Source: Polychytrium aggregatum (Eukaryota > Chytridiomycota > Chytridiomycetes > Polychytriales). Taken from it: a DNA stretch of 64,000 nt. Shown one piece after another: positions 5,189-63,321 of this stretch. The notes under the pieces are model-generated. The model searched no databases, was not told where the DNA came from, and saw only the letters and a list, made by a program, of their open reading frames with translations. Each line of letters starts with the position of its first letter. Position 1 is the first letter of the stretch. Made by a program: the position numbers and the translations under genes. The stretch spans positions 248,001 through 312,000 of the forward strand of contig NW_026516226.1 in NCBI RefSeq assembly GCF_025602895.1, in the 5' to 3' direction.

Positions 5189-7600
5189 CTAGATCAGCGA
5201 AGCCATTAGTGTGCCAAGAAGGACAACAGCAACGGCAAAAAAATTTGCACCGAAGATTGAGCTGGCACCAGACTTGGAGGCACCTGGGGGAATGGAGACG
5301 TCGGTCTGGGCACCAGGACCAAACAGAACCGTGGCTGCAACTGAGGGGACGCCGCCAGAGAGAGCAAACAGCATCCAGTTGCCAGGAGGGGCCACAGAAC
5401 CGTTGGGAGGGAGACGGACATAGATGGTGTCTGAAGTCTGGCCAAGGATGTTCAACACGACAAGGCGCTGGTCGCTGTTGGTCTGGTGGGTGGTCGAGGC
5501 ATACCGAACAAAGTGAACCTTGTCAATCTTGGTGCCATCGACGGCCGAGGGATTGAGCTTGAAGGCAATCGAGGAACCGTAGGTGGCATTGGAGGGAGCG
5601 CTGGTGATGACCGGTCGAGGGTTGCCGGTCAACAGGTAAGGGGGAGTGAATCGCTCCATTTTGGTTCCAAAGGGCGATGTGCACTGGGTCATGTCCATCA
5701 GCACGCCGCTCTTGTCGGTGATGCCAGCGCTGGTGTTGTACATTGGGTTGTCGGGGCTGCAGATGGATGAGAGGTTGGCGACATCGGTGTTGCCCCAAAT
5801 GTCGAAGATGTTCTGCATCTCAGATCCGGCGGTGTAGATGTAACCCGAAGGAGCCAGCAGAGCCACGGAGTGGTACATCCGGACGATGGAGTACGAAGCG
5901 ACAGGCGTGTGGGTGTCGGTATCGGGATCGTAGATCTCGGACTGGAAGTTGGGTCCACGAGCGTACATGGCTTGACCGGCGTTGCCACCAGCCTGGCCCC
6001 ACGCACCGCCATTGGTGTACAGAATCTTGCCGTCTAGAGCAGCGCGTTCGGAATACAGAGTCAGCATACAGCAGAGTACATGACCAACGAATACAGGCTC
6101 GAACGAGAGCACGCAAAGCTTATCGCAAGACATGCAGATGACGAATGTACACGCGCATGATTCTTACCGGCCATGATGACACCGTCAATCATCAGACGAG
6201 GAGTCAGCAGAGGGTTCTTGGTGGTCCAGGTGGGGTTGGGAGAGTCGGGGTTGATGCTGATGCACATGTTCGAGGCATCGGGTGTGCTCTTCTTGCTGCC
6301 ACCACAAATCTGGATATTCGCTTCATAGTTCGGGGGCTTGAGGGGAAGCATGATCGAGTGCGAGGTATAGGGATAGATCCAGGGCTGGTGGTCGTTGGTG
6401 ATGTTGGCAGGCATCGAAGGGACCTTGGGAGGGATGCTGGGGTTGTTGTAGTCATGTGTATCGGTCGCGGTATCAAAGAGCATTGTCTCGTTGGCGACAA
6501 AGACAAAGACCTTCTTGGAGGGAAGCTGGAAGACGGTGGGGAAGAGCGAGTAGGGGTAGTTCTTGATAAGGATGTCCAGAGGGCGGGGCCAAGTTCCGGG
6601 CTTGGAGGGGTAGTACTCATAGGTGGGGTTGTCGTTGCCGACAGGGTCCCAGGTACTGGGGCTATCGACTGGAATTTGGAGCGGAATGAGGAAATATAGT
6701 TCATCAGTGGCGGCCAGGATCGGACTGAGCGAATTGCTCCGGCTCTCCTCCAGGTTTGGATTGCAAGGGCGCGCCGAACAAGATCTCCCGCAAATCCACG
6801 GACTACTCACGGTCAATGTTGAGGTTGCTGCCGGAGAGGAAAAAGATATTGCCATCATAGAGAGTAACGGCAGTGGGATACCAGCGCTTGGTGCTCATGG
6901 GACCCATCGAGAGGTCCCAGGTGCCGATCGTGCAGTTGGTGGCACCGGCGGGGCAAGGGCGGTAGATACGTCTCATGTTGTGGCCATCGAGCTCGTACGA
7001 GTTGCCGTTGTCTGGGATGATGGTTGACTTGTCACCGCCGACGACAAAGACGTTGCCGTCGGCCATCTGCACGTGGTGGCCGCAGAAGGGACTGTAGTCC
7101 ATCTTGGGAGTGACCTGGTACAGATTGGAGTTGGGATCGCCCGTGTACTTGGAGGGATCGAGCTCGACAGTGAGACTGGGGTACTTGCTCCCAGCAAAGG
7201 TGTTTTGGTTTGGTTGGTACTAGAGCGGTGCGGGAAGGAGAACGAGGAAGGCGGTGATGCTGATTAGATGCGAGAGCTTGCCACAAATCACAGGGTTGAT
7301 GAAGGCGGCATCCAGTCTGCCGGGTCCACCGAGGCAACAGCAGCGTTCCCACCAAGGGGCTGTGAGAGATAAGCATAGGACCAATGCAGGTACTCCAGGA
7401 AGCAAGCACCGACTTACAGGGAAAGGATGGGGTCGCTCCATGCACAAGAAGCGCTCGTTCGGAAGGAGAATCAAGTGGATGCAAGTGACACCCGTGTTTC
7501 CGATGACATCCCACTTGCCCGGGAGGTTCTGCTGGCCCAGGACCGATGGAGCCAAGGTGCTAGCGGCCAGCAAGGCGAGAGTCGCCGATGATGCTTTCAT
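5189..7600 (-). CDS. Copper radical oxidase (glyoxal-oxidase type), copy 2, secreted
   Basis: Four exons (7600-7418, 7219-6811, 6668-6168, 6033-5189) give 645 residues. Signal peptide MKASSATLALLAASTLAPSVLG. Family ligands are intact: Cys107 (SPFCGHH), Tyr175 (KRWYPT), Tyr418-His419 (RMYHS) and His547 (STTHQTNSDQR). The C-terminal tail is hydrophobic (GTLMASLI), consistent with a GPI anchor. Intron positions and phases equal those of copy 1, so the pair arose by tandem duplication. A 303-base stretch of the last exon is identical in the two copies although the N-terminal exons differ strongly, which suggests gene conversion. Compared with copy 1 it has about a 10-residue longer loop after the Tyr-His pair (PDNPMYNTSAGITDKSG region). 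Substrate unknown; an extracellular aldehyde or alcohol oxidase making hydrogen peroxide is expected. Confidence 0.93.
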
Positions 7601-26539: not shown

Positions 26540-29500
26540 TCACACAATCAGGTCGAGCTCGTAGCGCTGGTAGATGTTGTTGCTGTCGTTCTCGGCTCGG
26601 GGATAGTAGCCCACAAGGGCGCCTTGGGCACCGATGTACAAGCTGTTGTATATCTTCCAGTAAATCTCGCGCACTCGGCGAGCGGGATGGAACAGCCCTT
26701 GAAGAACGTACTGCAGAATCACGGCTGGGCCCAAAGCCACACGCAGTCCCTCGATGGCCTCCATGACAGCATTGATAACGTGCGGCGAGGTTTCTGTTGG
26801 CAAAGGCACGTCGGGTCAGTCGGTGGCGAACAGAGGCAGCAAACTCAATCGCCCTGAGCCGAGTCTGTCCTTTCTCTTGCCTGCATTCAGTCACTAGCGG
26901 GTGCGGGATTCAAGTCGAGAGAGCAGCGACACATGTTCCAAAACCAGATTTCCCAAACGGCTCAGCGGTGCGCTCGTTCTTGCAAATTGCATGGCAACTT
27001 ACCAAAGATGTTCGGCCAGACATAGTTGAGGAGATGATGCATGGCGTCCTCGCAGCCCAGACCAACGACACCGAGGGCCATGTGCTTGACCGTGGTGCAG
27101 GCCGTCTGGCGATGGACCAGATCGCGGTCCATCAGAGCATCCTCCAGCAGCGGCGTGACCGCATAGACATAATCCTTGCCCATCTCGCCAATGTACTCGA
27201 ACAGGAAGCTCAAACTCTTCAAAACGCCGTTCTGGACGTTGAGCTCCGGAACGCGGTACTCGTTCATGAGCGCCGGCAGGACCGTGAAGGGTGAGCACGT
27301 TTCGGCAACGATGGCAATGGCAACGGTGGTGCACACACGGTTCTGGCGCTCCTGGACCTTGAGGTTGTTCAAGAGCGTTGCCAGTACATCCTGCGGACCA
27401 ATCGCCTTGGCAATGTAGCCGAAAGTGTTGACAGTGGCACGCTGGATTGCCTTTTTGTGGGCCTTGAGCATGTCCAGGAGCTCGAAGCAGATGCGCATCC
27501 ATTCGCGGGCCGAGACATACTCGGCGCCACGATCAGCGATGCGGCCAACCAGGTCGATGCAGTTCTCCTGCACCTTCTCGTGTCGGTTCTTCAGGATCGG
27601 AGTCAGCCGAGGAAGGAGCTCCTTGATGGGGGGAGTCATGTTGCTCATGCCAATGACATTGACGATGCTCTTGAGAGCACCCAGGATACTGCCGAGCACC
27701 TCTGGATACTCTTCGCCAAGATACTCATACAGAATCACACCGAGCTTAGCCATGACGGCCTCTTCACCGCAGTTCTTCATCACGACGACGATCCGGGAGA
27801 TCAAGTCGGCAGCCTGCTGACGGACCTTGGCGGATTTGTTGTTGAGGCGCCATCGGATGTTGCCCTCGATCTGAGTGATGTAGGGCTTGACGCGCAAACC
27901 AAGCGAGTTCACGACCGTGCCAAAGCCGTTCAAGATGACAACGTCTTCAATGGTCTGCTGCTGGAAGGCATACAAGATGCCGTCAATCAGGATCTCCTCG
28001 AGGCGATCGTCGATATCGGCCGTGCCGAGCTCCGAGACCACCTTGTCGATCGTCTCCATAACCATCTTGCGATAGGGCTCGCTCTCGTCCTTCAGATCCT
28101 CGACGATCCGCTTGACGATTTCAGAGACTCCGACCTTGCGGGCCAGCTCGACTGTCGTCTCGACCAGTTGCTTATAATTGCGGCGGTCCAGAGCCATCCT
28201 TCGAACCCAAAAGTGCTTGAAGAACTCGTCCAGGATCTGGGTGCGGATGTATTCGGCCGAGACGCCATCCGTCGCCGTGCACTGCTTGACGACCTTGAGA
28301 ACGATTTTCTTCATTTCTTCATCGGGTGACTGGAACTCGCGGATCAGAATCACCATCACTTGGCGAGTGTAGAAGTTGGCGTGCTCGGGGGCCATCAGGG
28401 GGATGATGTAGCCAACGGCCTTCAAGAATGCAGCCAGACCTTTGCCGCGATGCTTCTTGGTGCCCTCCCAGAGTGGACGCAGGGCCGAGTCAAAGGATTC
28501 GATGCCGTATGGTGCAGCTGCTTCAGCCAAAGCCGCAATTGCCAGTGCGCTGATGGTTCGCACTTTCTGCTGTTCATCGGTGATCCCGTGGACGATGGCC
28601 TCAACCAAACTCTTGAGGTGCGGAAGGACAGCGCAGCCCATCAGAATGGCGATTTGCTGCACAATCTTGATGCCTGTATGTCGCGCCTGCCACGACTTTT
28701 GCGACCGACACACGGCGCGCAAGAAAGGAAGGAGCTGAGGAATGCCGAGCGCCGAGGCGACGACCGAAAAGGCTCGCGCAGTGGTGTTGCGGACATATTC
28801 ATCGGGGTTATCAATGTCCGGGCGCATGGTTGGGATCATAAAGGCCAGGCCGGCAGCCTTACTGAGGTTGCTGATGATCTCGCGTCCTTCGACGCGGGCG
28901 TAGTAATCCTCGTCAATGAGCAGCGGCTCGATGACGACAAGGATTTTGTGAACGTACGGGCGAACAAGGTCGTCGAGCTTGTAGAGGATTCGGTCAATGA
29001 CCTTGACAAGCAAGTGGCGCTCCTGGTCCTCCAGGGTGGGTGACATGAGCAGCGGGAGGATCTGGTTGAAGAGCGGGCCGGCACCAAACTCGCGGGCCTT
29101 GTCCGTGATCTGTCGCAAGGCGATCTTGCGAATGGGCGGCGTGCCATTCTTGATCTTGAGAAGCAGGCGCATGATCTTGCGCTCCTTGAGCTCGTCCACG
29201 GACAGATCCGACTCTTCCTTTTCATCAAAGAGCTTTCCAAAGTGCTGCATGTCCTCGGGCTTGAAGAACTGGAGATTTCCGACGCCGGAAAGCTCCGGAG
29301 GAATATCATACTGCTGGTGCCGATCCTCTTCCTGCATCATGAAGCCGGCGCCAACCTGACCGGCCATCGGGGTGGGTGTTTGCATGAGCTTGCGCGCAGG
29401 GGTGCGGATAGGCTGGTAAGTGGCTGGGGGCTCAAGGATCTTGTAGCCAGTCGTGGGAAACATAGCATCGAGCTCCTCGTCGGTGAGCTCTCGGTTCCGG

Positions 29501-30779
29501 TAGTCGATTTCCTTTTCCCAGCGCATTGCATTGACGGCCTCGGGGGTCATGGGGACCTGGACCTGTCCAGGCGTCGGCGTGAGCAAACCCAAGCCTCCAA
29601 CCGGGGTAGCTGCGAACTGGGACGACCCAGCAACAGGGGTCTCGTCCCAACGCGACCGCCTGCCAGCTGTCGGTGTGGCAGCCGGCCCGGCCTGCTTGGG
29701 AGTCGCATCCCACTGTGTGCTTGCGGCCACAGGGGTCTCGTCCCATCGATTGCGTTTGCGCGGGGTCGGAGCGGCTGAGGCAGCAACGGGGGTCTCGTCC
29801 CAGCGGTTCGAGGACGTCTTGGTGGGCTTCTCGTCCTCCTCCCACTCGGACTTGGGCGGGCTGGTGCTGTGACTCTCGCTATCGGATGTAGGGACAACAG
29901 CAGCCTGGTCCCAGCGACGTTTCCGAGGCGCAGGCTGTGTCGACGAGCTCGCAGCCGCTCCGGACTTGTCATTCTCGGCAGCCTCGCTCCGCTTCTCCTG
30001 GATCAACTTCCGGACACGGGCTTCCTCCTTCTCCAGTTCGGCCTCTCTCATGACGTCAGCATAACTGCGCTGCCCAGCCGTGGGCTCTTGGTTGGAAAAT
30101 GCATCGACTCGCTCGGGGGATAGCTGGCGGTTCAGACGCCGCTTGCGGTAATCGTCCTCGCGATCGATGACCTTGCGGGAGGTGCGTGCCATGGGGTCGA
30201 GGCTGTCCTCATCATCGGCCCCGAGAGTAGCCATCTCATCCAGGATGGCCTTTGGGGCAGTGTAGGATGCCAGCCTCTTCTTGGGCTGCGTGTGCATCGG
30301 GTCAAAGTCGTCGTGGCTCTCGTTGATGGGCAGCGAGTCGTCGTACTCGGCATGAGCCCCGCCCGAAGAGCCAAAGCCCTCGACTTCGTCGTATGTGTTG
30401 GTGGATCGGCCAAAGGCGCTGCCTTTTGCCAGAAGAGCCTTGCGCTGCTCCTGGATGGCACGGATATCGTCATCTTCAACTGCATTGCAGAGATCGAGAT
30501 GTGGGAGTAGTTAGTAGCTGGTCAGCAACCACTCGGTGCCATTTGGGGAAGGGTGCCGTTCGCGGATCGCCCCAGAGGTGACGAGCGACTGGCCATCATC
30601 AATGCTCAGCACAAGCAACTGGACAGGTGTAACCAACAGGCCAGAGCATCAGCGATCTGTCGGCCAGACATGGGGATCAGCAGGACGGACCAAGAAACGA
30701 GATCTTGGGAGAGTGCGACAGCGCCCTGACGCACGCCGCTCCGGTCGAGGATACCGAGTCTCAACTCACCGTCGCTCAT
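26540..30779 (-). CDS. SF3B1: Splicing factor 3B subunit 1 (SF3B1/Prp10/Sap155)
   Basis: Three exons (30779-30770, 30479-27003, 26793-26540) give 1246 residues; human SF3B1 has 1304 and S. pombe Prp10 about 1205. The first exon is just 10 bases (ATGAGCGACG), joined to [20 protein letters not shown]. The N-terminal third has repeated RWDETP and TP motifs, with tryptophan-containing U2AF-ligand motifs (RKRRWDQ, RNRWDE, SRWDE) that bind UHM domains. The C-terminal two-thirds are HEAT repeats, very close to the human protein: [49 protein letters not shown] and [15 protein letters not shown]. Positions equivalent to human R625, H662, K666 and K700 are all wild type. Function: U2 snRNP core protein that clamps the branch site. 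The last exon rebuilds [20 protein letters not shown]. Confidence 0.97.
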
Positions 30780-49709: not shown

Positions 49710-52700
49710 TCATCCAAATCGGATGGCGCCCGCGGGTCGAGGTGCAGCCACGGTCGTTTCCGTCGAAAGTGCCGTCGCGCCGTCCTCTAGGCCGTCAAGC
49801 ACCCCCAGGTGGACTAACTCGGTTCCGCACAGTTTGTAGGCTGTCACGCTGTTCTCGAGCTGGGCGACATAGATTCCAATGTCGAGCGTCGTCGACTCTA
49901 TCGGCCGAGCGATCGACGAATCAGTTTCGGTATTCCACACTCGGCCAAGGCTGTTCTTTAGTTGCTTCAGCGCATGTTCGTCGGCATGGAGATCTGAGGG
50001 TGGTACGCCGAGCAAATGGCGCTGGTGAAGAGTAGAGGAGGATCACACCGCCCCCCCCATAACAGCGTCGTCGTCAGAAAGGTGCAGGTTGATTCATTCC
50101 ACAGAGTACGCTGGGCTGTATGCCCAGGGTTCTGGTACTCAAGAGGCAGCGAGACCGTCTCATAGCCACACTTGCAATCGTCTTCATGCGACCCAATGCC
50201 GAGACTTACCCCGTCATCGTGCGAGACGCCCACCGGGAGAATATGGGTATCGTCCGTCACCAGGAGCGAGAACATGTACACGTAGCTGTTGCGGATGGCG
50301 ATGCTGCCACACGAGGGACACTGTTCAAGCTGCATTCCAGGCTGCCCTCTGGGTGGGAATGACCGGTGGTTGAATGAGAAAGCATGATGAAACGATCACG
50401 CACAGTCGGAATCCATGGTCGTCGTCGGAATCAAAAGAAACCCAATAGCGTCGAGGCTGGTCTGGCCACGATCTGGTCAAACAGGCCACTCGATTGCTGT
50501 GCGCCTCTGCAGCAAAGACTGATGACTGCTTTGTAATACTGGCGGGATGAGTGCCGTCTTTCCATACCTTGCGTTGCAATCTGGACACAGTTGGCATGTA
50601 AAATCCCTCAGGTTCACGGGACGATAGTCCAGGACTTTGACTTTGCAGACAAAGTATCCCTCTCGCTCTTGGGAAAGCTCGCGAAGGGTCTTTCGGGTGG
50701 GCCATTGCTGGCCGATTGGGGTAACATCTAAAGGGATGAGCGATTTGGGGGGGGGGAAGGCTCGGCTTTGGTGATTTGCTTGTCCTATCGACAGCGGACG
50801 CGAGCCTCTCGCTGGGATGGGCAACCCAAGCTCAAAGATACGCAGCCGCTTCCACCACAACATCACTCAGCATGGAGTGCATGCGGCAAACTGAGTTTCG
50901 GGTCGACAGCTGTCGGCGCTCATACGAGCCACGCTGCATGTGGTCCGAGTGGCAAGAGTACCAACACAGTCGGCCACTAACCTGAGATCGGCTGGTTCTT
51001 GAGCTTAAACTTGAGCTCGCGTCTGAATCAGATGTGTGTCAGTGCATCCCGCCAAATTGGGCATCCTCCGGCTTTGCATTGGGTGAGGAAACGAGTGATC
51101 GCTTGAGCGCCCCTGCGAATCATCGCCAAGACTGAGTGAACAGCCCATCTGCAGCTTCTCCTCCTCGATACCCGAGACAATCGGCCCACCTGATCAAGCC
51201 ATCAATGCGCTGGTCGTCGGCGCTCACTATGGCACCGCATTTTTTGTGGGCATCGCCGTGGATCGACAGTTCGACGAGACCGTCTGATCGCTTGCGAACG
51301 TGCACATTTTGAAACCAGACGTAGTCGTTTTGCTTGAACTGGCTGCCGAATACCGCATGGTTGTCCCTGTGTACGAAGCATTGGTGCACAGCACGAAGAC
51401 AGTGTCGGAGGGTTCAGTTGGATGCGCCACAGTCCGAGCCAAGCGTGCAAATCGGTCTGCGATGAGTGCGAAGAAGGCATGGTGAAGCGGTCACCGCACC
51501 AGAGCGTCAGGTTGATGAGCATGTCACTTGGGAGGACGGGGTCGTCTGCACCGGGATTGTATCTTGCGGCGCTGGATCGAGGCCAGGGTTTGGGAGAGCG
51601 ATATCAGCTGTGCGTTTACGACTTGATCGCTGGCGGATGGCCCCTCCCTGCGACGCTGCCGGCTGTGTTGCCGATATTGACAGCGACACCTGGTTGGTGT
51701 CTTGGTCCAGTGTCGACCACGAGACAGTGTTCAGGGTACTTACAAGCAACGAGGGTTGGCTGTATAATCCGTGACGAGTAGAACAAGTCGCTCGCCACTT
51801 CCGCCTTCGCATTTGTGGACGATCTGTGTGCCCGACGATTAACAAGAATGGCGGATGAGCATTGTTGCTCGCTGGCAAAGCCAGTCAAGCATCACGATCG
51901 AGGCAATCACGCCGCTCAGCAGTGGCGATCCTGGCGTTCATGAGCTATGGCCATAGTCATGGCTCCGGCTCAAAGCAGCCAGTTCGTCCCCGTTCTCAAG
52001 AATGCACTGCGAGCCAGACCCACCTGGACAAACATGTCACAATACTCCTGGCTGTCGTCCAAGTCACAGATCCGCATGATTTTGCGCTTCAAGCCCGGAC
52101 CAACCTGCCCCGTTTGCCCGGCCTGTCCGGCGTGCCCAGCATCGGCGTCCTACCCCGGATTTCGAAGCGCTCGGCTGGTAGATGGTGCTGGTGCGCCAGT
52201 GCCTCAGCTCGGTCGAGATCGCAATATCGGCTTCGCTCAGGGATGGACGGGTTGGTGGAGGGCGCCTCGAATCGAGTGTATCGACGACGACGAACTGCGA
52301 GCCTCGGGTCGACACACCTTGCAACCTGCCGCTGTATCTAGATATCTGGGCGATCCAAGACCAACCGCCCCCAGAGCGATGTGTGTGTTGAAGGATGAGA
52401 GATGGGCCGTGAGCTGCGAGAGCTTCCTGGTCCTTTCCGTGCCATGAGTAACAGCCTTCTGCACGATCGCACTATGGGCCCCGGATCAGATCGATCCTCT
52501 CGTGGGCCTTACACGGATATGGTGGCATTTCAGAATGTCTTCCTTTGCAACGACGGGAAACATCTCTGGGGTCGGCCGGAAGATATTGACGGCCATGCCT
52601 TGCGGATACGATGGGTCGCTGAGGATGACGCTCATAACGCAGTCTGGTACAAGAGAGTCATGGGGGCACGGATTAAGACTGATCATCTTGGGCGAGATGC

Positions 52701-52877
52701 AGCGAGCCGTATGCTTGCTGGACGGACAGGGATGTGATCGCTACCGGTTCCCTTGGACTTGCGGATTTCGGAGAGAGAAACGACCACGCCATAGAAGCTG
52801 CTGACGACGGTATCGGGCACGAGCGAGCCTATGCCCGTCGGCGGCCTGTGCCGTGCAGATGGCGCCGGCAGGTTCAT
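49710..52877 (-). CDS. POT1: POT1-like telomere single-strand binding protein
   Basis: Multi-exon gene from the ATG at 52877 (MNLPAPSARHRPPTGIG) to the stop at 49710. First OB fold: LVPDTVVSSFYGVVVSLSE, then across a GTAGCG...CCAG intron KGTDCVMSVILSDPSYP and VNIFRPTPEMFPVV, typical of Pot1 (KGTDY...L.L.DPS, NIFRP). Second OB fold: IMRICDLDDSQEYCDMFVQ, NDYVWFQNVHVRKRSDGL, VELSIHGDAHKKCG. The C-terminal third OB fold has GYFVCKVKVLDYRPVNLRDF with CQLCPDC and later CPSCG, the paired CxxC ligands that hold zinc in human POT1. It then continues NSYVYMFSLLVTDDTHILPV. Role: binds the G-rich telomere overhang in shelterin. Exon borders beyond the first two exons are not all fixed. Confidence 0.87.
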
Positions 52878-53676
52878 GGTTGTCGGGGCTGGTTGGTTCG
52901 CTGGCTGGCTGGTTCGTTCGCTGTTCGTGACGATGAAGGGAGAGCAAATGGCTGACGAGGGCTGGACATGCGCAGATGGACTTGTCGAGACGCTGCCCGC
53001 GACACACACGCGGAGAATCGGCAATCATGTCCAAGGCTTGCACCGGCACGGCGATTCCCGAATGCGATGCACCGACTGCAGAACGACGATATCGCCCCAC
53101 AATGTCTCGTCAGCCAAGTTCATCGCGGCGGCGTTCGGCCGGGCGGTCGACCGACGCCATTCAGCCCGCATATCTGCTCTCCCGCTTCAGCTGGCTCGCT
53201 TTGATCCTGGCATGCGCTGCCCAGAGCCTTTGCCCTCGCGCTTGCTCCTGCTGTCCCCTCCAGACACCCCGAAGGCCGTCCTGCATGCATCCTCCAAGAC
53301 ACTCGTGCTGGCATTCCCCCCAAGGCCTTGCTTGCGTCGCCCTCATGACCCCAAGATGATCCCCAATCAGGCACAGCTCCCCTGCCACCTTGATCCCCCC
53401 CGCCAAACCCACGGTGCCAAGCGCGGCGCTTGTCCGACCGAGCATGTCCGCCCACGCCTGTGCCACAACTGCGCCCTTGTCAGCGCCGCGCCGGCCAATC
53501 GCGCGCCGGCCCGGTGACCCGCTGCCGCCGTGGCCGCCTTCCTTTTCGGGCGGTGGCTCGTGCTGCGCACCGTGACAAATGCCGCCGCCTCTCGTCCGCT
53601 TCTCGTCCGCTTCTCGCCCGCGCGAGCCGCGCTCTCGCCCTCGGCTGCGCTCTCGCCGCCGCTGTGGCTCAGCCGC

Positions 53677-53683
53677 TATAAAG
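53677..53683 (+). promoter_or_regulatory. TATA box of GCN4-like bZIP gene
   Basis: TATAAAG in the context CCGCTATAAAGCCG, about 110 bases before the first upstream ORF and 378 before the main ATG, implying a leader of roughly 340 bases. Confidence 0.65.
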
Positions 53684-53788
53684 CCGTCCCGCCGCCCGCC
53701 GCCCTCCCCCCTCCTTTTTTTTTTCTTCTCTTCCTCGCACACCCTCCCTCCTTACTAGAACACATATCCCACTCATAGACCCGCAACC

Positions 53789-53800
53789 ATGTGCTGTTAA
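53789..53800 (+). promoter_or_regulatory. uORF1 (Met-Cys-Cys-stop) of bZIP leader
   Basis: ATG TGC TGT TAA with the context CAACC before the ATG. First ATG after the predicted TATA box. Confidence 0.65.
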
Positions 53801-53862
53801 ATCCGCGTCCCGCCCCCCAAGCGCACCTGAGATTCTCATCTCTCCTCTCTCTCTTTTTCAAA

Positions 53863-53871
53863 ATGTGTTGA
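53863..53871 (+). promoter_or_regulatory. uORF2 (Met-Cys-stop) of bZIP leader
   Basis: ATG TGT TGA with the context CAAA before the ATG, 62 bases after the end of uORF1. Confidence 0.6.
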
Positions 53872-53927
53872 CTCGCTCGTAATTTATAGTCTCAAACTTT
53901 TAGTTTGCTGCACTCATTCTGCCCATC

Positions 53928-53960
53928 ATGACTCCGTTCGTGAAAGTAAAATCTCTTTAA
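53928..53960 (+). promoter_or_regulatory. uORF3 (10 codons, MTPFVKVKSL) of bZIP leader
   Basis: ATG at 53928, TAA at 53958, context CATC before the ATG. It ends 94 bases before the main ATG at 54055. Confidence 0.6.
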
Positions 53961-54054
53961 GCTCGACCTACCCAGCTTCTGCCCTTTTTTTCGTTTTGAA
54001 CCACCTCCCCCCAGTTCATTTCCTCCCTCTGTTTCGACCTTGAAAATCACTACT

Positions 54055-54984
54055 ATGCCAATGACTTCCTCAGAATTCGACTTCAACCCTCTGGAATTCA
54101 ACTTTGGCCCCTCCGGCCCTAGTTCCCTCCAAACGTCGCCCCTCGTCTCCTCGGCGGACCTGTTTGCCTCGCTCGATGGCAGCCACAGCACGGCGATGCT
54201 TCTGCAGGACCTGCTGATGCCTGCGGGCCTCTCGGCCTCGGCTCCTGCTTTGCTCGCCGAATCGCGTCTGCCGCTCGGCTTTGCAACCAGCCCCACCGTT
54301 TCCCCTGCGAACGAGTGCCTCCAGGACTTTTCCAACTCGCTCTTCCCCACCCCCCAGCAGTCGCCCCTGTCCGAGTTTGTCTGCAGCGACCCCTTCGCCT
54401 CGCCTGCGGCCTCGTCCTTGGCCCTGTTCCCGTCAACGCCCAGCCTGACCCAGGCTGCTGCGATGCCCTCGCCCAGCATCAGCATTCCTTGGACTCCTGC
54501 CACGCCCGTGGTCTCGACGCCTTCGACGCCGGTGCTGCCCTCCTCCGGCATTGATCTCGGCGCCTTGATTGGACTCGCCATTGCTGGCGCAATCAAGCAG
54601 CAGCCCCCTCCTCCAAGCGCGGCCGCTCCTGCCACGTCCGTCGCAAACATTCCGCCAATCACGATCCAGCAAACCTACCGTGGGCAGAAGCGCAACGTGA
54701 CCGCCGCCGAGATCATTGCCGAGGAGCAGCTCAAGCGCCAGAAGAACACGGACGCCGCGCGCCGCTCCCGCCAACGCAAGGCCGAACGCATGGACACGCT
54801 CGAGCGCCAGATCAAGGAGATGGCTGCCGAGCGCGCCAAGTTCCAGGCCCAGCTCAACGCCATGAACGAGCGCGACGCCGCCCGCGTCAAGGAGATTGAG
54901 GCCCTCAAGGCTGCTCTCAGCCACGCCAATGTTCTCCTCGGCGAGGTCGGTCTCGGCATTGCCGAGCTCGACAAGCCGCTGTGA
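54055..54984 (+). CDS. GCN4/CPC1-like bZIP transcription factor
   Basis: Intronless, 309 residues from the first main-frame ATG (MPMTSSEFDFNPLEFNF). The C-terminal bZIP has basic region LKRQKNTDAARRSRQRKAER at about residues 226-246, nearly the Gcn4 motif NTEAARRSRARK, then a zipper helix (MDTLERQIKEMAAERAKFQAQ) to near residue 300. The N-terminal 200 residues are Ser/Pro/Leu-rich with acidic-aromatic groups (EFDFNPLEFNF, LQDFSNSLF) suited to activation. One stretch, GALIGLAIAGAIKQQ, is hydrophobic. Known family role: activates amino-acid biosynthesis genes under starvation. The leader holds three minimal uORFs, so translation is likely controlled as for yeast GCN4; that is inferred. Confidence 0.93.
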   Translation: MPMTSSEFDFNPLEFNFGPSGPSSLQTSPLVSSADLFASLDGSHSTAMLLQDLLMPAGLSASAPALLAESRLPLGFATSPTVSPANECLQDFSNSLFPTPQQSPLSEFVCSDPFASPAASSLALFPSTPSLTQAAAMPSPSISIPWTPATPVVSTPSTPVLPSSGIDLGALIGLAIAGAIKQQPPPPSAAAPATSVANIPPITIQQTYRGQKRNVTAAEIIAEEQLKRQKNTDAARRSRQRKAERMDTLERQIKEMAAERAKFQAQLNAMNERDAARVKEIEALKAALSHANVLLGEVGLGIAELDKPL

Positions 54985-55841
54985 GCGACGGAGGTGGCCC
55001 TCTGTTTGCAGCTTCTCCCGCAACTCACGATTTTCCCTCTCCATCTCGTTCCATTTCCATCCATTTCATCTCCATTCCATCCGACATTTTCCTCTCGATC
55101 GATTCTTGTGAGCCCATTTCCAAAATCCTGATTTTCAAATAAATTCTTTTTTTTTTGTTCAATCCCAAGCTCTATCCCGTGCTCAGATATATGGCAGAGG
55201 TGTGGTGTGTGGTGTTGTGAGGTGCACTCGAGATTGGATCTGTTTCACTGGCTTATGGTGGTCGTTGCCATCCTTGCTTGCCATTTGCAGCGACAGTCGA
55301 CCTTCAAGTGTGCAAACGTGCAGCCGCATTGCCATTGCGACTCTGATCTGCACACAGCAGCGGTCTTTTGGTCGACCGATCATCATAGCATTCGTGGCTG
55401 ATGAGTGAATGTGTATTTAAGATCTAGAAGCAAGCAGAGGCTGGGCAGCGTCTCGGGGTTCTCGAGATTGGCGAGCGCTGCCTCAGTTCAAGGAGAGGGT
55501 AAAAGAAAGAGAGCGAGAGAAGAAAAAAAAAAGAAAGGGCAGAGACAAGAGCGAGAGAACAGGGTCGCGAGGTCGATTGGGGGAGGAGGCAAACTGATCG
55601 AAGCGGACCCAAGCCGGGCCGAGCCAGTCAAGCCAGGGCGGAGGTTGACGACAGCCCCAGGCGAGGACAAGTTGGCGCAAAGGCTGGAGGAGACATGGAC
55701 GGGGGGGGGATCGAAGCGGACCAGATGGGATTAGATCGGATTGGATCGGATTGGATCGGACAGGATCGGATCGGTAAAGAAATGCGATGGACTGGGAATG
55801 GGGCCGAGTTTGACCAATGTCGATGTCGATGTCGCTTTAGT
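54985..55841. other. Intergenic between bZIP gene and Cys-rich family
   Basis: About 860 bases between convergent genes: bZIP 3' UTR (AATAAATTC near 55138), then AG-rich sequence and a GGATC/GGATT short repeat near 55735-55770. No gene seen. Confidence 0.5.
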
Positions 55842-56955
55842 TTAGAGCGTTAGACCAAGGACGGCAACAGCAGCACCAAAGGCAAGCGAGACCAAGGGGA
55901 CGGCCAGGGTGGCAGCGGAGGACGAGGGCTTGGAGCTCGGGGACGAGCTGGTAGTGCTGCTGGCGGCGACAGGCGAGGGCGACGGCGTCGGAGTGGGCAG
56001 GGTGCAGTTTCCGGTCAAGCCAGCGCGGCCAGTGTCGCCGAGGGCAACCGAGACGGCGAGCAGGTTGGCGGGGGTGGCCGGGATGCCGCCATAGCAGACG
56101 GTCGAGATGCTGTAGGTGATGGCAGCACCGGCAGGGCTGCTCACGTAGACAAAGAAGAGATCGGTGGTGCCGGGGGCAATGGTGGCATTGCACGAGTCGG
56201 TGTGCTGCAGAGGGGGGTTGCTGAAGCCGCTGACGGTGATGGTCTTGCCGGCGAGCGAGGGCTGACCCTTATAGTCGCAGGCAACGGAGATGTCGGCCGA
56301 GTAGTTGGCGCCGGGGCTGTTTGGAGCGATGGACAGATGGGCGGATGGTGGTGAAAGACAGTAATTAGAGATGGCCGTTGATGATCAAGCCGAGGGTAAA
56401 TAACAAGTGGCAGTGTCGGGAGAGTGTGGGATTGGAGAACAACAGCGGCAACGGCAGCAACAGTAGCAACAGCAATAACAATAACAATAACAACAGAAGC
56501 GGCCTTGGTCGTTCGTTTGGTCTCTGTCGCCAGACCCGACACAACCTGCGCGGACAACACACTTACCCCGACGAGTTGCCGACCAGGTCGACGACGGTGC
56601 CGAGCAGAGTGTACTGCGTGCAGGTCGCCAGGCACTGGGCGTTGCTACCGCAGCTCTGAATGACGCTGCAGGTGAAGGTGCCGTCGGTCTGGGCGAGCGC
56701 TGCACAACCAGCACGCAGACACAGCGGGGAATAGAGAGAGGCGATAGCGCATGATGGTGGTGGTGATAGAGCATGGCGATAGAGTAGATGGCATAAGTGG
56801 ATGCAAAGCGGCAGTTTCGATAGGTCCCCGGCGGTGCACTCCTCTGTCTGCAGCACACAGGAATAGGCCAGGCCACACCCCAGCCGGCGATACAGAAAGC
56901 GGGTCTTACCAGAGCCGGCGAGGGCCAGGAGCGAGAGAGCAGTGATGGACTTCAT
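55842..56955 (-). CDS. Secreted Cys-rich protein, probably GPI-anchored, family member A
   Basis: Three exons (56955-56910, 56699-56567, 56316-55842) give 217 residues. Splicing inside the signal peptide yields MKSITALSLLALAGSALA. The mature part starts TFTCSVIQSCGSNAQCLATC (N-terminal Cys block), then LLGTVVDLVGNSSG, ANYSADISVACDYKG, ITVSGFSNPP and ISTVCYGGIPATPANL. A Pro/Ser/Thr-rich stalk (TPTPSPSPVAASS) and a hydrophobic end (FGAAVAVLGLTL) indicate a GPI anchor. It shares intron positions and phases (1, then 2) with the two genes to its right, so the three arose by tandem duplication. I recognise no named domain; a small cell-surface or adhesion protein is a guess. Intron 2 contains CAA/CAG triplet repeats. 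Confidence 0.85.
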
Positions 56956-57538
56956 GGCGGCGGATGGACTGACGGAGTGGTGTGCAGATGGAGAGATGGA
57001 CAGATGGCCGGACAGACTAGACGAATGCTGGCAGCAGAAGCGCTTATGAGGAAAAGAGAGGCGATCGGCACCCAAAGCCAAAGAGCGGCCGACCGAAAAG
57101 CGCCTCGACAGGGACGACGTCGGAAAAGAAGGCCGGCCGGAAAAGGAAGGCGCGCCGCGGCGCCCGCCAATGGGAGCGCGTGGCCGGCTGCGCGTGCATG
57201 CTGCGCAACACTGTACTGTGGCCGCCGTGTGCTGCGACGCGCGCTGGTCGTGTGGCACCAGCTGCGGTGCGCGTTTGGGCTTCTGGATGCGGCTGTGGTT
57301 GGCGGTGGAGGTGGTGGTGGTGGGGGACCGCGGTGATGCCCACGGTCACCAACGTGGTGGCCATGGCACTCGACCAACATGGCCTGGCCGTTCTGTGCAT
57401 GCACATGCACCAGGCCTGTCGCCGGCCCAAGGATCTGGGTCGAGCATCAGGAGCATCAGGAGCATCAGGAGCATCAGGAGCATCAGGAGCATCAGGAGCA
57501 TCAGGAGCATCAGGAGCATCAGGGACGGCGAGCATGGT
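56956..57538. other. Intergenic between family members A and B, with 9-base repeat array
   Basis: About 580 bases: promoter of member A, a GGT-rich stretch near 57305-57330 and the GAGCATCAG array at 57442-57522. No gene supported. Confidence 0.5.
57442..57522. repeat. (GAGCATCAG)9 nonanucleotide array
   Basis: Nine perfect 9-base units, starting 17 bases beyond the stop codon of member B on the minus strand, so it lies in or next to that gene's 3' UTR. No spacers, hence not a CRISPR array. Confidence 0.95.
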
Positions 57539-58600
57539 CTATTCCCGGACTGCTCCCACCACCACCGCTACCGCCATCGCGACCAGCGCTGTCGCCAGCC
57601 CCGCCGACCATCCGGGCCTCTGTCCTTCCGAATACACCATCACAATTTTGGTTCCGTTGGTCCCGTTGACGACTTGCAGCCCGTTGTTCGGCGCAGGGGC
57701 CGGCGTCGACAGCGGCGTCGGCAGAGCACACCACGGATTGCCGTACTGCGTGCCGTTCGTGCCTGTCCCGGTGCTCGGGTACAGCCCCACGACATTGCTG
57801 AGGTGCTGGACGGTATCGTTCGTCACCGCAAACCCTCCGTAGCAGATCGATGTCAGATTGTAGATCGTGAAGGACGTCCCCAGCAGCACATTCTTGTATG
57901 TCGTCGAGTTAAAAAAGAACAGCCGGGTGTCGCCCACGCTGACGTCCGCCTGGCACACTTCGTTGGTCGGCACTGCGGCGGTTGGCTGTGCCCGGGTGAT
58001 GTTGGGGGCATGGTTGAAGTTGTTGATGGTCATGATGTTCCCGTAGAAGCTGCCCTTGAAGCTGCACTGCACAAGGACATTGGCCGAGTAGTTTCCGCTG
58101 GCCCTGGCGATCGAGTTCCGAGGTGGCCCGTCCGAGTGAGCACAGCCAGCATCAGTCTCGGGCTTGGACGTTGTGTGCGTGCAGCATATTTGCAATTCAC
58201 CCTCACAGCCAGTACCAGTCCCAGTCCCAGTACTAGTACCAGCATCACTACGAGCATCACTACCAGCATCGGCCACAGCAGCAACACTCACGCCGGCAAT
58301 CCGGTGCCCGTGTTGACGTTGATGACCCGCCCCAGCACAATGTACGGGCTGCATGTGCTGAGGCATTCAATATCGCTGTTGGGGCATGGATACGAAGCTG
58401 TGCATGGATAGTATCCTGCGTACACCTCCGCTGCTGAGAGCGCAGAGCCGTCAGTTTGCAATCTGGCAGACTTGTCCCTTCTCGCCCCGCCAGTACTCCA
58501 CACACACCACCGTGGCTCTCCTTTTCAGCCTCTGCTCCTCATACGATGTATCTGCCATACCTAGAAGCGACAAGAGGAACAGCGTGCCGCTCAAGTTCAT
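57539..58600 (-). CDS. Secreted Cys-rich protein, probably GPI-anchored, family member B
   Basis: Three exons (58600-58561, 58433-58292, 58103-57539) give 248 residues. Signal peptide MNLSGTLFLLSLLAAEVYA is again interrupted by a phase-1 intron. Mature part: YPCTASYPCPNSDIECLSTC, YIVLGRVINVNTGTG, GNYSANVLVQCSFKG, ITSICYGG-like block (LTSICYGGFAVTNDTV). It has more Asn-linked glycosylation sites than its siblings (NGTNGTK, NSTTY, NLTS). The C-terminus is hydrophobic (LATALVAMAVAVVVGAV) but ends in a charged RE, so a true GPI signal is less clear; it could be a transmembrane tail. Function unknown. Second of three tandem paralogs. Confidence 0.84.
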
Positions 58601-61097: not shown

Positions 61098-63321
61098 TCA
61101 ACTATGTTCCGCTGGTTTGACAGCCTCTGCAGACTCGGGCCGGCTATTCAATGCCCAGATTGACTCTCCCACGACGATGAGCGACGGGCTGCCCACAGCT
61201 GCCGCGGCCACAATCTCGACAATTGTCTCGAGGGTGCCTGTGACGACCCGCTGCTCCGGCAGAGTTCCGTTCTCGATCACAGCCACGGGAGTCGCGCTTG
61301 GATATTCCTGCTCCGAGAACAGCTGGACAAGCTCCTTCAGCCGCAGGACAGACATCAGAACGACCGTCGAACGCTTCTCGTAGTACGGCGGGATGTTTGG
61401 ATAGGCGCCATTCTCGCCACGGCCTGAGAGTACCAGCACCTGGTCGGCAACGCCGCGGTGGGTCACAGGGATCATTGCGGCCTCGGGGACGGCAATGCAG
61501 GAGCTGATGCCAGGCACAACCGTGGGCTCGTATCCCTGCTCACGGAAGAATGCCACTTCTTCGCCACCCCGACCAAACAGGAACGGGTCGCCGCCCTTGA
61601 GCCGGACGACGGTTCGGCCTTTCTTCAGCTCTTCGAGGCACATGTCGTTGGCGCTGAGCTGGGCACGGTCGGACTGGCCCGCAGCCTTGCGCGGCACAAA
61701 CCTGAGGGCCGACTTTCGGATCAACTTGAGCACCGACGGCGACACCAGTTGGTCCGACACAACCACGTCGGCCGTCTTGAGGGCCTCGGCCGCCCGGAGC
61801 GTGAGCAGATCGGCCGGTCCTGGGCCTGCTCCCACCAGAATCAACTTGCCAGCGCGTCGGCCGAACCCGAGCGGAAGCGGAAGCGGGAGAGCTCGAACTC
61901 CGGATCCGACCATCGATACAATCGACACCGGAATGCCCACCAAAGCAGCTCCGGTCTGCTGGATGTACGACAGGGTTGAGTACGAGACCGTCTGGAGCGC
62001 TGTCGTGCCGTATCCCTTGGCAGCCGAAATGCTGCTGAGTCCGGCGGTAGCGATACCTCCAAGGAAACCAAGCGTCCCCTGGGGGCGAGATGACGCCTGG
62101 GCAGCTATGTCTTGGGACCGGGAGCCTCGGGAGATGGAGGCTTGGGGAGGGGGTGCCTCGCCCCGCTCGTACGAGTCCAGCAACTTCATCACCTGCGCAA
62201 TAGGATCAGCAGCATTGTAGTGTCAATGACCAGACCAGCGATTCAACGGTCTAATCGCAAACTCTGCCACGCCCGAGCATTTTCCGGGCGCACACACACC
62301 TCGTCTTCGGTCATCTTGGCCATGTCTTCAAAGCTCCACTGGTCGCAGAGGCGGCTGAACCAGCGCATGCGCCGGTCGACCGACTCGGGGCTCATGTCCG
62401 CATGTCGCTCGCGGACCCGCTTTCGCAGGTTGCCGATCCGTTCAACAGCCCGGCATGTTTGCTCGGGTCCGCCAGGAAGCGAGCTGACCACATGGCTTCG
62501 GAGGCGGGCAGCTAGTCGAGGGCCGCAGCCGTTGGTGGAGATGCCGATCTGGCGAGCCGCATCCACAAACAGATCAAAGGATCAGCGGCGTCATTGCATG
62601 GACGGCATGGGCGGTATTGCGCATTGGATGTGGGTTGCAGATATCCAGTTGGGATGAATTCCGCATCGGTAAGGTCGCAAGCCATCGATTGGATTGGGGT
62701 GTGGGTCGTCGATTGCATCGACAGATGCATATTTGGTACCGGGATGTTGATGTGACGCTGCGTTAGTGCATCGACAGGACGCCATATGCAATCCATCGGA
62801 CACAGATGCGACGACGCTCATGCCGGCCAAATCCCAAGCGATTCTCCAACTGAGGGCAAGCGCTTTCCGGTCCATGCGAGTGCCGGTCAACCCTGCTATT
62901 GGCTGCTGACCTGCAACGGCCCCTCGCGATACTGAGCCATGAAGTAAAAGTCGCAGAGGTCCGGGATATCGGCGCAGTTGACGAGGATGCTTCGAGCACG
63001 GCACAGCTGTGCGATCCGGGCCGACTCTTCGTGATCGTCAATGCAGGACAGGACCATATAGACACCGCCGTCGAGGTCCAGATCGGCGTCGTCAAAGTTG
63101 CGGTCCAGATGGCGCACCTGGCCCAGGTCGATGCGTTGCTGCACAGCGGCCGTGAGGCCGGTCTGCGGCGCTACGATCGTGACCCGGGCATCGGCGTCTA
63201 GGGCGAAGAAGATACGCCCGGTGGCTTCCTTGCCTCCTCCGACGATGAGGACGTGCTTGTCAGCGAGTCGTAGGGCGGCCAGGAATGACGCCTGTCCGTG
63301 GACCTGTTTGAGCTCGGCCAT
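61098..63321 (-). CDS. Fused siroheme synthase (Met8-like dehydrogenase/ferrochelatase + Met1-like uroporphyrinogen-III methyltransferase)
   Basis: Three exons (63321-62911, 62548-62300, 62192-61098) give 584 residues. Residues 1-220 are Met8/CysG-N: Rossmann motif HVLIVGGGKEATGR (GGG 28-30), VNCADIPDLCDFYFMAQYR, GPLQIGISTNGCGPRLAARL and a dimer helix region (RKRVRERHADMSPES). Residues 334-584 are the SAM-dependent methyltransferase: GKLILVGAGPGPADLLTLRA, VVRLKGGDPFLFGRGGEE, VVPGISSCIAVPE, PVTHRGVA. Together these cover uroporphyrinogen III to siroheme, the cofactor of sulfite reductase. Budding yeast has the two parts as separate genes (MET8 and MET1); bacteria fuse them as CysG. The linker (260-330) is unusually long and hydrophobic (LGFLGGIATAGL, GAALVGIPVSIVSMVGSGV), possibly membrane-associated. 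Confidence 0.94.

Follow-up and report, generated by a model that had tools for sequence, protein, structure and literature searches.

Translational control of the GCN4/ATF4 type is already known from ascomycetes and mammals, and basidiomycete homologs carry suitable upstream open reading frames (uORFs) (PMC5487733, PMC5972666, PMC11550727). In Saccharomyces cerevisiae, uORF1 and uORF2 of GCN4 end in the Cys codons UGC/UGU and permit reinitiation, whereas uORF3 and uORF4, with CCG as their last codon, do not; tRNA-Cys readily departs post-termination complexes (PMC5972666), and UGC is one of the penultimate codons that depend least on Tma (PMC11375166). In the cpc-1 leader of Neurospora, uORF1 favours and uORF2 blocks translation of the main ORF, and in Neurospora extracts loss of uORF1 lowers reporter expression (PMC5487733). 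The barriers of the Neurospora and mammalian ATF4 leaders are longer uORFs instead of uORFs with Pro-CCG ends (PMC5972666).

Since cpc-1/cpcA, the basidiomycete homologs and ATF4 all have such uORFs, an ancient origin of this control was already thinkable (PMC5487733, PMC5972666, PMC11550727). Ascomycetes and basidiomycetes are the groups covered by the comparative work on cpc-1 leaders, which describes comparative sequence for other fungal phyla as scarce (PMC5487733); our search of the literature, judged by titles and the opening of abstracts and with most subscription journals outside its scope, found no report on GCN4 or uORF control in chytrid-type or early-diverging fungi. Here we describe a locus in a 64,000-nucleotide stretch of genomic DNA (hereafter, the window) at which two Cys-ended uORFs and a longer uORF precede a bZIP gene, an arrangement that suggests, by analogy, the same starvation-switched translation control as in yeast. 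The interest of the locus lies in its place in the tree, together with its yeast-like Cys endings.

A gene for a likely Gcn4-type bZIP protein

The locus comprises the following features, given in window coordinates.

53677–53682 (+): TATA box (TATAAA), which likely serves the bZIP gene as core promoter, read from the sequence
53700–54054 (+): probable 5' leader, pyrimidine-rich, G-poor and without marked structure or a GTRNG 5' splice site, delimited by composition
53789–53800 (+): uORF1, Met-Cys-Cys-stop (ATG TGC TGT TAA), read from the sequence; proposed to be reinitiation-permissive
53863–53871 (+): uORF2, Met-Cys-stop (ATG TGT TGA), in the main frame, read from the sequence; proposed to be reinitiation-permissive
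53869–53874 (+): TGACTC, Gcn4-type core (candidate site), overlapping the uORF2 stop and supplying its stop codon
53928–53960 (+): uORF3, MTPFVKVKSL-stop, 10 codons, final sense codon CTT followed by TAA; proposed barrier
53929–53934 (+): TGACTC, second Gcn4-type core (candidate site), overlapping the uORF3 start (ATGACTC)
54055–54984 (+): Gcn4-type bZIP transcription factor of 309 aa, encoded by an uninterrupted CDS, assigned by Pfam, PDB and genome search
54727–54870 (+): basic region and start of the zipper, residues 225–272, LKRQKNTDAARRSRQRKAERMDTLE..., assigned by Pfam bZIP_2, PDB and yeast alignment

The encoded protein is likely a Gcn4-type bZIP. It scores 24.2 bits against Pfam bZIP_2 (cut-off 22.3) and 23.8 bits, below the cut-off of 27.6, against bZIP_1. 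A PDB search at E 0.01 returned four sequences, all of them GCN4, and the basic region is identical to that of yeast Gcn4 at 18 of 34 positions; residues 231–242 (NTDAARRSRQRK) match the Gcn4-type basic motif NTxAARRSRxRK, defined here as it is seen in the yeast alignment from the PDB search. When the genome was searched with 40 residues of yeast Gcn4, a single locus was found, present on both haplotypes (two places; 16 candidates scored). The likeness to Gcn4 that the initial annotation had proposed holds. Among the 28 bZIP places that a PF00170 search recovers in the genome, the two of this gene rank lowest. The heptads of the zipper, counted from L249, read L-M-F-M-R-L-A, and the zipper is therefore degenerate. 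A pattern search for relatives of the protein yielded 10 matches in viral contigs and 69 in prokaryote contigs, none of which is a relative.

The assembly, 64.7 Mb in size, appears to hold two near-identical haplotypes, with many family matches paired at equal score. The bZIP pair is carried by contigs C116 and C157, C116 being the second haplotype, 99.96% identical over 5.4 kb. As the second haplotype is identical across the entire leader and CDS, the pair yields no signal of selection on the uORFs; a search with the leader DNA recovered both haplotypes only. The host had been called an early-diverging fungus. The assembly contains eight matches to the ciliary protein IFT57, the best at E 7.3e-33; 3 of the 14 control genomes also show IFT57 matches, though weak and below the cut-off. 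Chitin_synth_1N has 13 matches (best 4.3e-23) and none in the 14 controls. An assembly that holds both IFT57 and chitin synthase domains of fungal type fits a flagellated fungus. The designation thus gains indirect support from these two families, which do not establish the phylum.

Three uORFs precede the main ORF

All three uORFs of the initial annotation are present before the bZIP gene at the positions given there, and the main ATG (54055) does lie 94 bases past the end of the third. The uORFs, of 3, 2 and 10 codons, all close upstream of the main ATG and none overlaps the main ORF; uORF2 is in the main frame, with uORF1 and uORF3 in the two other frames, and 56 nt separate uORF2 from uORF3. 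Scanning 53710–54054 for ATG revealed none beyond those of the three uORFs. The three upstream ATGs and the main ATG alike have A at −3. Cys codons make up three of the five codons of uORF1 and uORF2 taken together, adjoining both start and stop. The nine bases preceding the uORF1 ATG (CCCGCAACC) are identical to those before the ATG that we chose as the candidate start of eIF2α.

Stops in the main frame are found in the leader at 53776, 53869, 53887, 53929, 53941 and 53947, and an in-frame N-terminal extension of more than about 105 nt is therefore impossible. The RNA fold of 53740–54060 is not notably structured (z-score −1.10; its stability was equalled or exceeded by 15 of 100 shuffles), and an Rfam scan of window positions 50000–58000 gave no matches.

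Comparison with described leaders

The leader differs from that of S. cerevisiae GCN4 in several ways: there are three uORFs here and four in yeast; uORF1 is Met-Cys-Cys, whereas that of yeast is Met-Ala-Cys; the leader is about 350 nt long with tighter spacings, the yeast leader and its spacings being longer; and uORF3, of 10 codons, ends in Leu, in contrast to the short yeast barrier with its Pro CCG end. Furthermore, the uORF1 stop of yeast is followed by 12 AU-rich nucleotides, and the corresponding stretch here (ATCCGCGTCCCG) has A/T at 3 of 12 positions and hence is not AU-rich; the AU-rich stretch is itself a detail of yeast uORF1 that is reported to play no part at yeast uORF2 (PMC5972666). 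The likenesses are that a Gcn4-type bZIP is preceded by two very short, Cys-ended uORFs, and that one or more later uORFs without a Cys end stand before the main AUG (PMC5972666). The start-stop/Cys layout had been likened to yeast by way of the first yeast uORF, and the analogy turns out to be closer than was claimed, given that both permissive yeast uORFs are Cys-ended (PMC5972666).

With Neurospora crassa cpc-1 and its Pezizomycotina homologs, such as Aspergillus cpcA, the locus shares a very short first uORF and then a longer one before a Gcn4-type bZIP, and upstream AUGs in good context (PMC5487733). It differs from the Pezizomycotina in that each of the 100 leaders in that comparison has two uORFs, of which the second spans 35–70 codons, and in that the main frame, open far upstream in those leaders, is here closed by stops (PMC5487733). 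An N-terminal extension of the Pezizomycotina/Basidiomycota type is absent, the main frame being stopped at 53947 and further up. Basidiomycete cpc-1 homologs likewise typically start with a short uORF and have a longer one further on; that first uORF is of 4–7 codons, however, and the long one in some cases overlaps the main ORF, which none does here (PMC5487733). Two Microbotryomycetes are described as being without the short first uORF (PMC5487733). Mammalian ATF4 resembles the locus in having a 3-codon uORF1 and an inhibitory later uORF that operate under eIF2α phosphorylation (PMC5972666), but uORF2 of ATF4 overlaps the main ORF, and uORF3 here ends 94 nt upstream of it.

Predicted transcript start and splicing

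The position of the TATA box and the base composition put the predicted transcript start likely near 53700. The number of G residues per 50 nt is 13–17 in the bins covering 53500–53699 and falls to 2 at 53700, which is 18–23 nt past the TATA box. It stays at 4–9 up to 54149, about 95 nt into the CDS, and the upstream bin 53350–53399 is also low (7 G), so the boundary at 53700 is not a clean mark of the leader. A weak TATA-like string, TTATAG at 53884, leaves a start further downstream possible.

None of the 14 GT dinucleotides in 53701–54070 fits GTRNG. As a standard for splicing in this genome we took the four introns of the eIF2α gene, all of which begin GTRAG; these were spliced by hand, and the product aligns with solved eIF2α structures. 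We used these four because the 18 candidates of a de novo intron search were noisy (8 of 18 fit GTRNG, versus 11% of all GTs).

The TATA box, the change in composition and the absent splice donor favour a leader that contains all three uORFs. The alternative, that the uORFs lie outside the main mRNA because transcription starts downstream of them or an intron removes them, seems very unlikely to us. Fungal transcription starts are often multiple, and the string at 53884 could direct a start past uORF1 and uORF2; against this stand the perfect TATAAA at 53677 and the abrupt compositional shift at 53700, and, for the intron, the comparison of the leader GTs (none of GTRNG type) with the eIF2α introns (all four GTRAG). 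Both objections had been anticipated in the initial annotation. That of a uORF-removing intron is answered in part, the leader having no canonical 5' splice site; that of a downstream start is weakened by the TATA box and composition, which place the start near 53700, and keeps some force through the weak string at 53884.

GCN2 and eIF2α

The genome contains exons of a GCN2 kinase gene and an eIF2α gene with the phosphosite motif, as judged by sequence matches. GCN2 was found in pieces on contig C46, with the exons matched one by one. The RWD exon is weak in Pfam (19.5 bits, below the cut-off of 22.8), and the exon preceding it is RWD-like by eye, without a Pfam match. For the two kinase exons, 8 of 12 and 7 of 15 PDB rows are named GCN2, the best rows included. 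The HisRS-like exon has five PDB rows, two named GCN2 and three named only protein kinase, and aligns at residues 984–1114 in three long PDB chains. At the C-terminus, the HGTP_anticodon2 match lies at the cut-off of 24.4 (24.3 bits; 24.5 with neighbouring sequence). Pfam returned no match for five of the nine first fragments of the GCN2 search (four of locus L020 and one of L019) and for two of the three later ones. A stronger PF12745 match on contig C279, locus L019, ranked first in the GCN2 search and was set aside, being an ordinary HisRS.

The eIF2α sequence (locus L045, contig C334), joined from its exons, carries SELSRRRIRS, the Ser of which we take to be the GCN2 target. Its frame reaches some 50 codons further upstream than the portion alignable with most solved structures; the protein may be extended at its N-terminus, or the start may have been misassigned. 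Because alignment with the best solved structures sets in only at about residue 48–52, the start that we chose is a candidate.

The Cys-ended uORF pair is far above chance

We compared the leader with 20,000 dinucleotide shuffles of itself (60,000 in a second run) and with 9,709 genomic segments, each 345 nt long, sampled every 50 nt and hence overlapping, along both strands in 244 kb of this genome, those near the bZIP leader being left out. Three or more uORFs were present in 30.5% of the 20,000 shuffles and in 8,196 of the 9,709 segments: uORF number alone is not above chance. This abundance is what would be expected if the uORFs simply repressed translation constitutively, or were ATGs that had arisen by chance in a long leader, with no starvation control involved. 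We nonetheless regard such a reading as quite unlikely, for it leaves the Cys endings poorly explained, along with the Gcn4-type protein and the occurrence of GCN2 and eIF2α in the genome.

Paired short Cys-ended uORFs are far above chance. At least two uORFs of 2–4 codons ending in Cys were seen in one of 20,000 shuffles, in one of 60,000 in the second run and in none of the 9,709 genomic segments, 114 of which contain exactly one such uORF; in the shuffles, Cys is the final sense codon of 3.6% of short uORFs. As the Cys criterion was taken from the yeast analogy in the initial annotation, it is not wholly post hoc. The strict pattern of M-C-C-stop, 46–76 nt and M-C-stop, which was composed after the locus had been seen, was searched for in the whole genome by a method that skips simple repeats and very common words. 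It occurs at four places, two being the bZIP locus on both haplotypes and two having TGG instead of stops, so that the strict pair with true stops was found in this search only at the bZIP locus, on both haplotypes; the reversed control pattern gave no places in the whole genome. Relaxing the pattern to M-x-C-stop ... M-C-stop yielded 10 places genome-wide, two of them the bZIP locus, and among the matches listed four have TGG for a stop; the remaining four may include further true pairs of the relaxed form.

At least three upstream ATGs with A at −3 are found in 0.4% of shuffles, but 766 of the 9,709 genomic segments (7.9%) have them as well. Because the segments hold more ATGs and reach this frequency, the presence of A at −3 throughout is only mildly unusual. 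In a start-codon profile the upstream AUGs outscore the main AUG, although this profile was built on only 24 gene-like starts and judged to be mixed with internal ATGs, as was likewise an earlier one built on 33 ORFs.

Proposed mode of control

We propose that the gene probably encodes the GCN4/CPC1-type factor that governs the general amino acid response in an apparently flagellated fungus, with a leader that would act, as in yeast, by GCN4-type delayed reinitiation. Scanning ribosomes would translate uORF1 and/or uORF2. At the Cys final sense codons the deacylated tRNA would leave easily, as we infer from yeast, and the 40S subunit would stay on the mRNA and rescan. In fed cells, the 40S would regain eIF2-GTP-Met-tRNA in time for uORF3. 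The main AUG lies 94 nt beyond it, and few ribosomes that had translated uORF3 would reinitiate. Upon amino-acid starvation, phosphorylation of eIF2α by GCN2 would slow this reacquisition, and ribosomes would pass uORF3 and start at 54055.

Some features fit the yeast model poorly, namely the 3' flank of uORF1 that is not AU-rich, a uORF3 without Pro and the 56-nt gap between uORF2 and uORF3. Since uORF3 ends in CTT and not in CCG, its proposed role as a barrier rests on length and distance alone. The degenerate zipper, the bZIP_1 score below its cut-off and the lack of Gcn4-type cores in the HIS3 sequence described below also speak against the proposal. The Cys endings may also matter less than the model implies: when Tma-hyperdependent codons were placed in yeast uORF1, most of them did not render reinitiation Tma-dependent, and lower wild-type reinitiation is named for only some codons in that uORF, namely ATG, GGG, CCG, CCC, AGG and GAG (PMC11375166).

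A simpler arrangement is described for Candida albicans GCN4, where one of multiple uORFs is sufficient (PMC5972666). If the same held here, uORF3 alone would matter as a single barrier past which ribosomes leak under stress, with uORF1 and uORF2 playing minor parts. The position of uORF3, the last uORF before the main AUG and one with A at −3, would suit this, but two short Cys-ended uORFs, which chance rarely supplies, would be left without a reason, and uORF1 and uORF2 also have A at −3 and should therefore be used; we consider a single barrier unlikely. The concentration of Cys codons in uORF1 and uORF2 (three of five, next to start and stop) could instead point to a sensor of cysteine, or sulfur, at which scarce charged tRNA-Cys stalls ribosomes and alters the flow to the main ORF. 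We hold this to be extremely improbable: yeast has Cys codons too, which are explained by easy tRNA release (PMC5972666), stalling at these positions would be expected to block and not to favour the main ORF, and the idea has no independent support.

Returning to delayed reinitiation, a GCN4-type leader in a flagellated fungus would, if the assignment is true, extend the mechanism toward the root of the fungal tree and closer to animal ATF4. A bolder reading, which we think less likely than not, is that the minimal Cys-ended uORF pair is an ancestral or a re-invented feature of GCN4-type leaders in fungi, and that the choice of the codon next to the stop is a deep and selectable element of the starvation switch across fungi. 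Cys would then have been kept, or chosen twice, as the residue whose easy tRNA release makes the best reinitiation uORF. The Cys endings would open to direct test, across many leaders, the idea that the final sense codon of a uORF tunes reinitiation.

Candidate Gcn4-type sites in the leader

The two TGACTC cores of the leader are 60 bp apart and possibly form a candidate autoregulatory site. Such cores occur at a density of 0.51 per kb in 244 kb of the same genome, and finding two in 345 nt is therefore only mildly unusual. In the cpc-1 genes of other fungi, GCREs in the 5' regions are implicated in autoregulation (PMC5487733). HIS3, the one amino-acid gene that we checked, has no TGACTC or TGAGTC on either strand in 3,192 bases, which include about 1.2 kb upstream of its start.

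Other features of the window

Elsewhere in the window, a large ORF with SF3b1 and HEAT domains encodes the splicing factor SF3B1 (27100–30297, −). Two ORFs with the galactose-oxidase-like C-terminal domain GO-like_E_set lie close together (1700–2435, −, and 5300–6067, −) and are perhaps a local duplication. A short tandem repeat (57044–57535, −) gives repeated Asp-Ala-Pro in predicted ORFs, and IRS or HQE in the frames of the other strand. Finally, an ORF with a TP_methylase domain of the siroheme or diphthamide type is located at 61200–62189 (−), about 6 kb from the bZIP gene.
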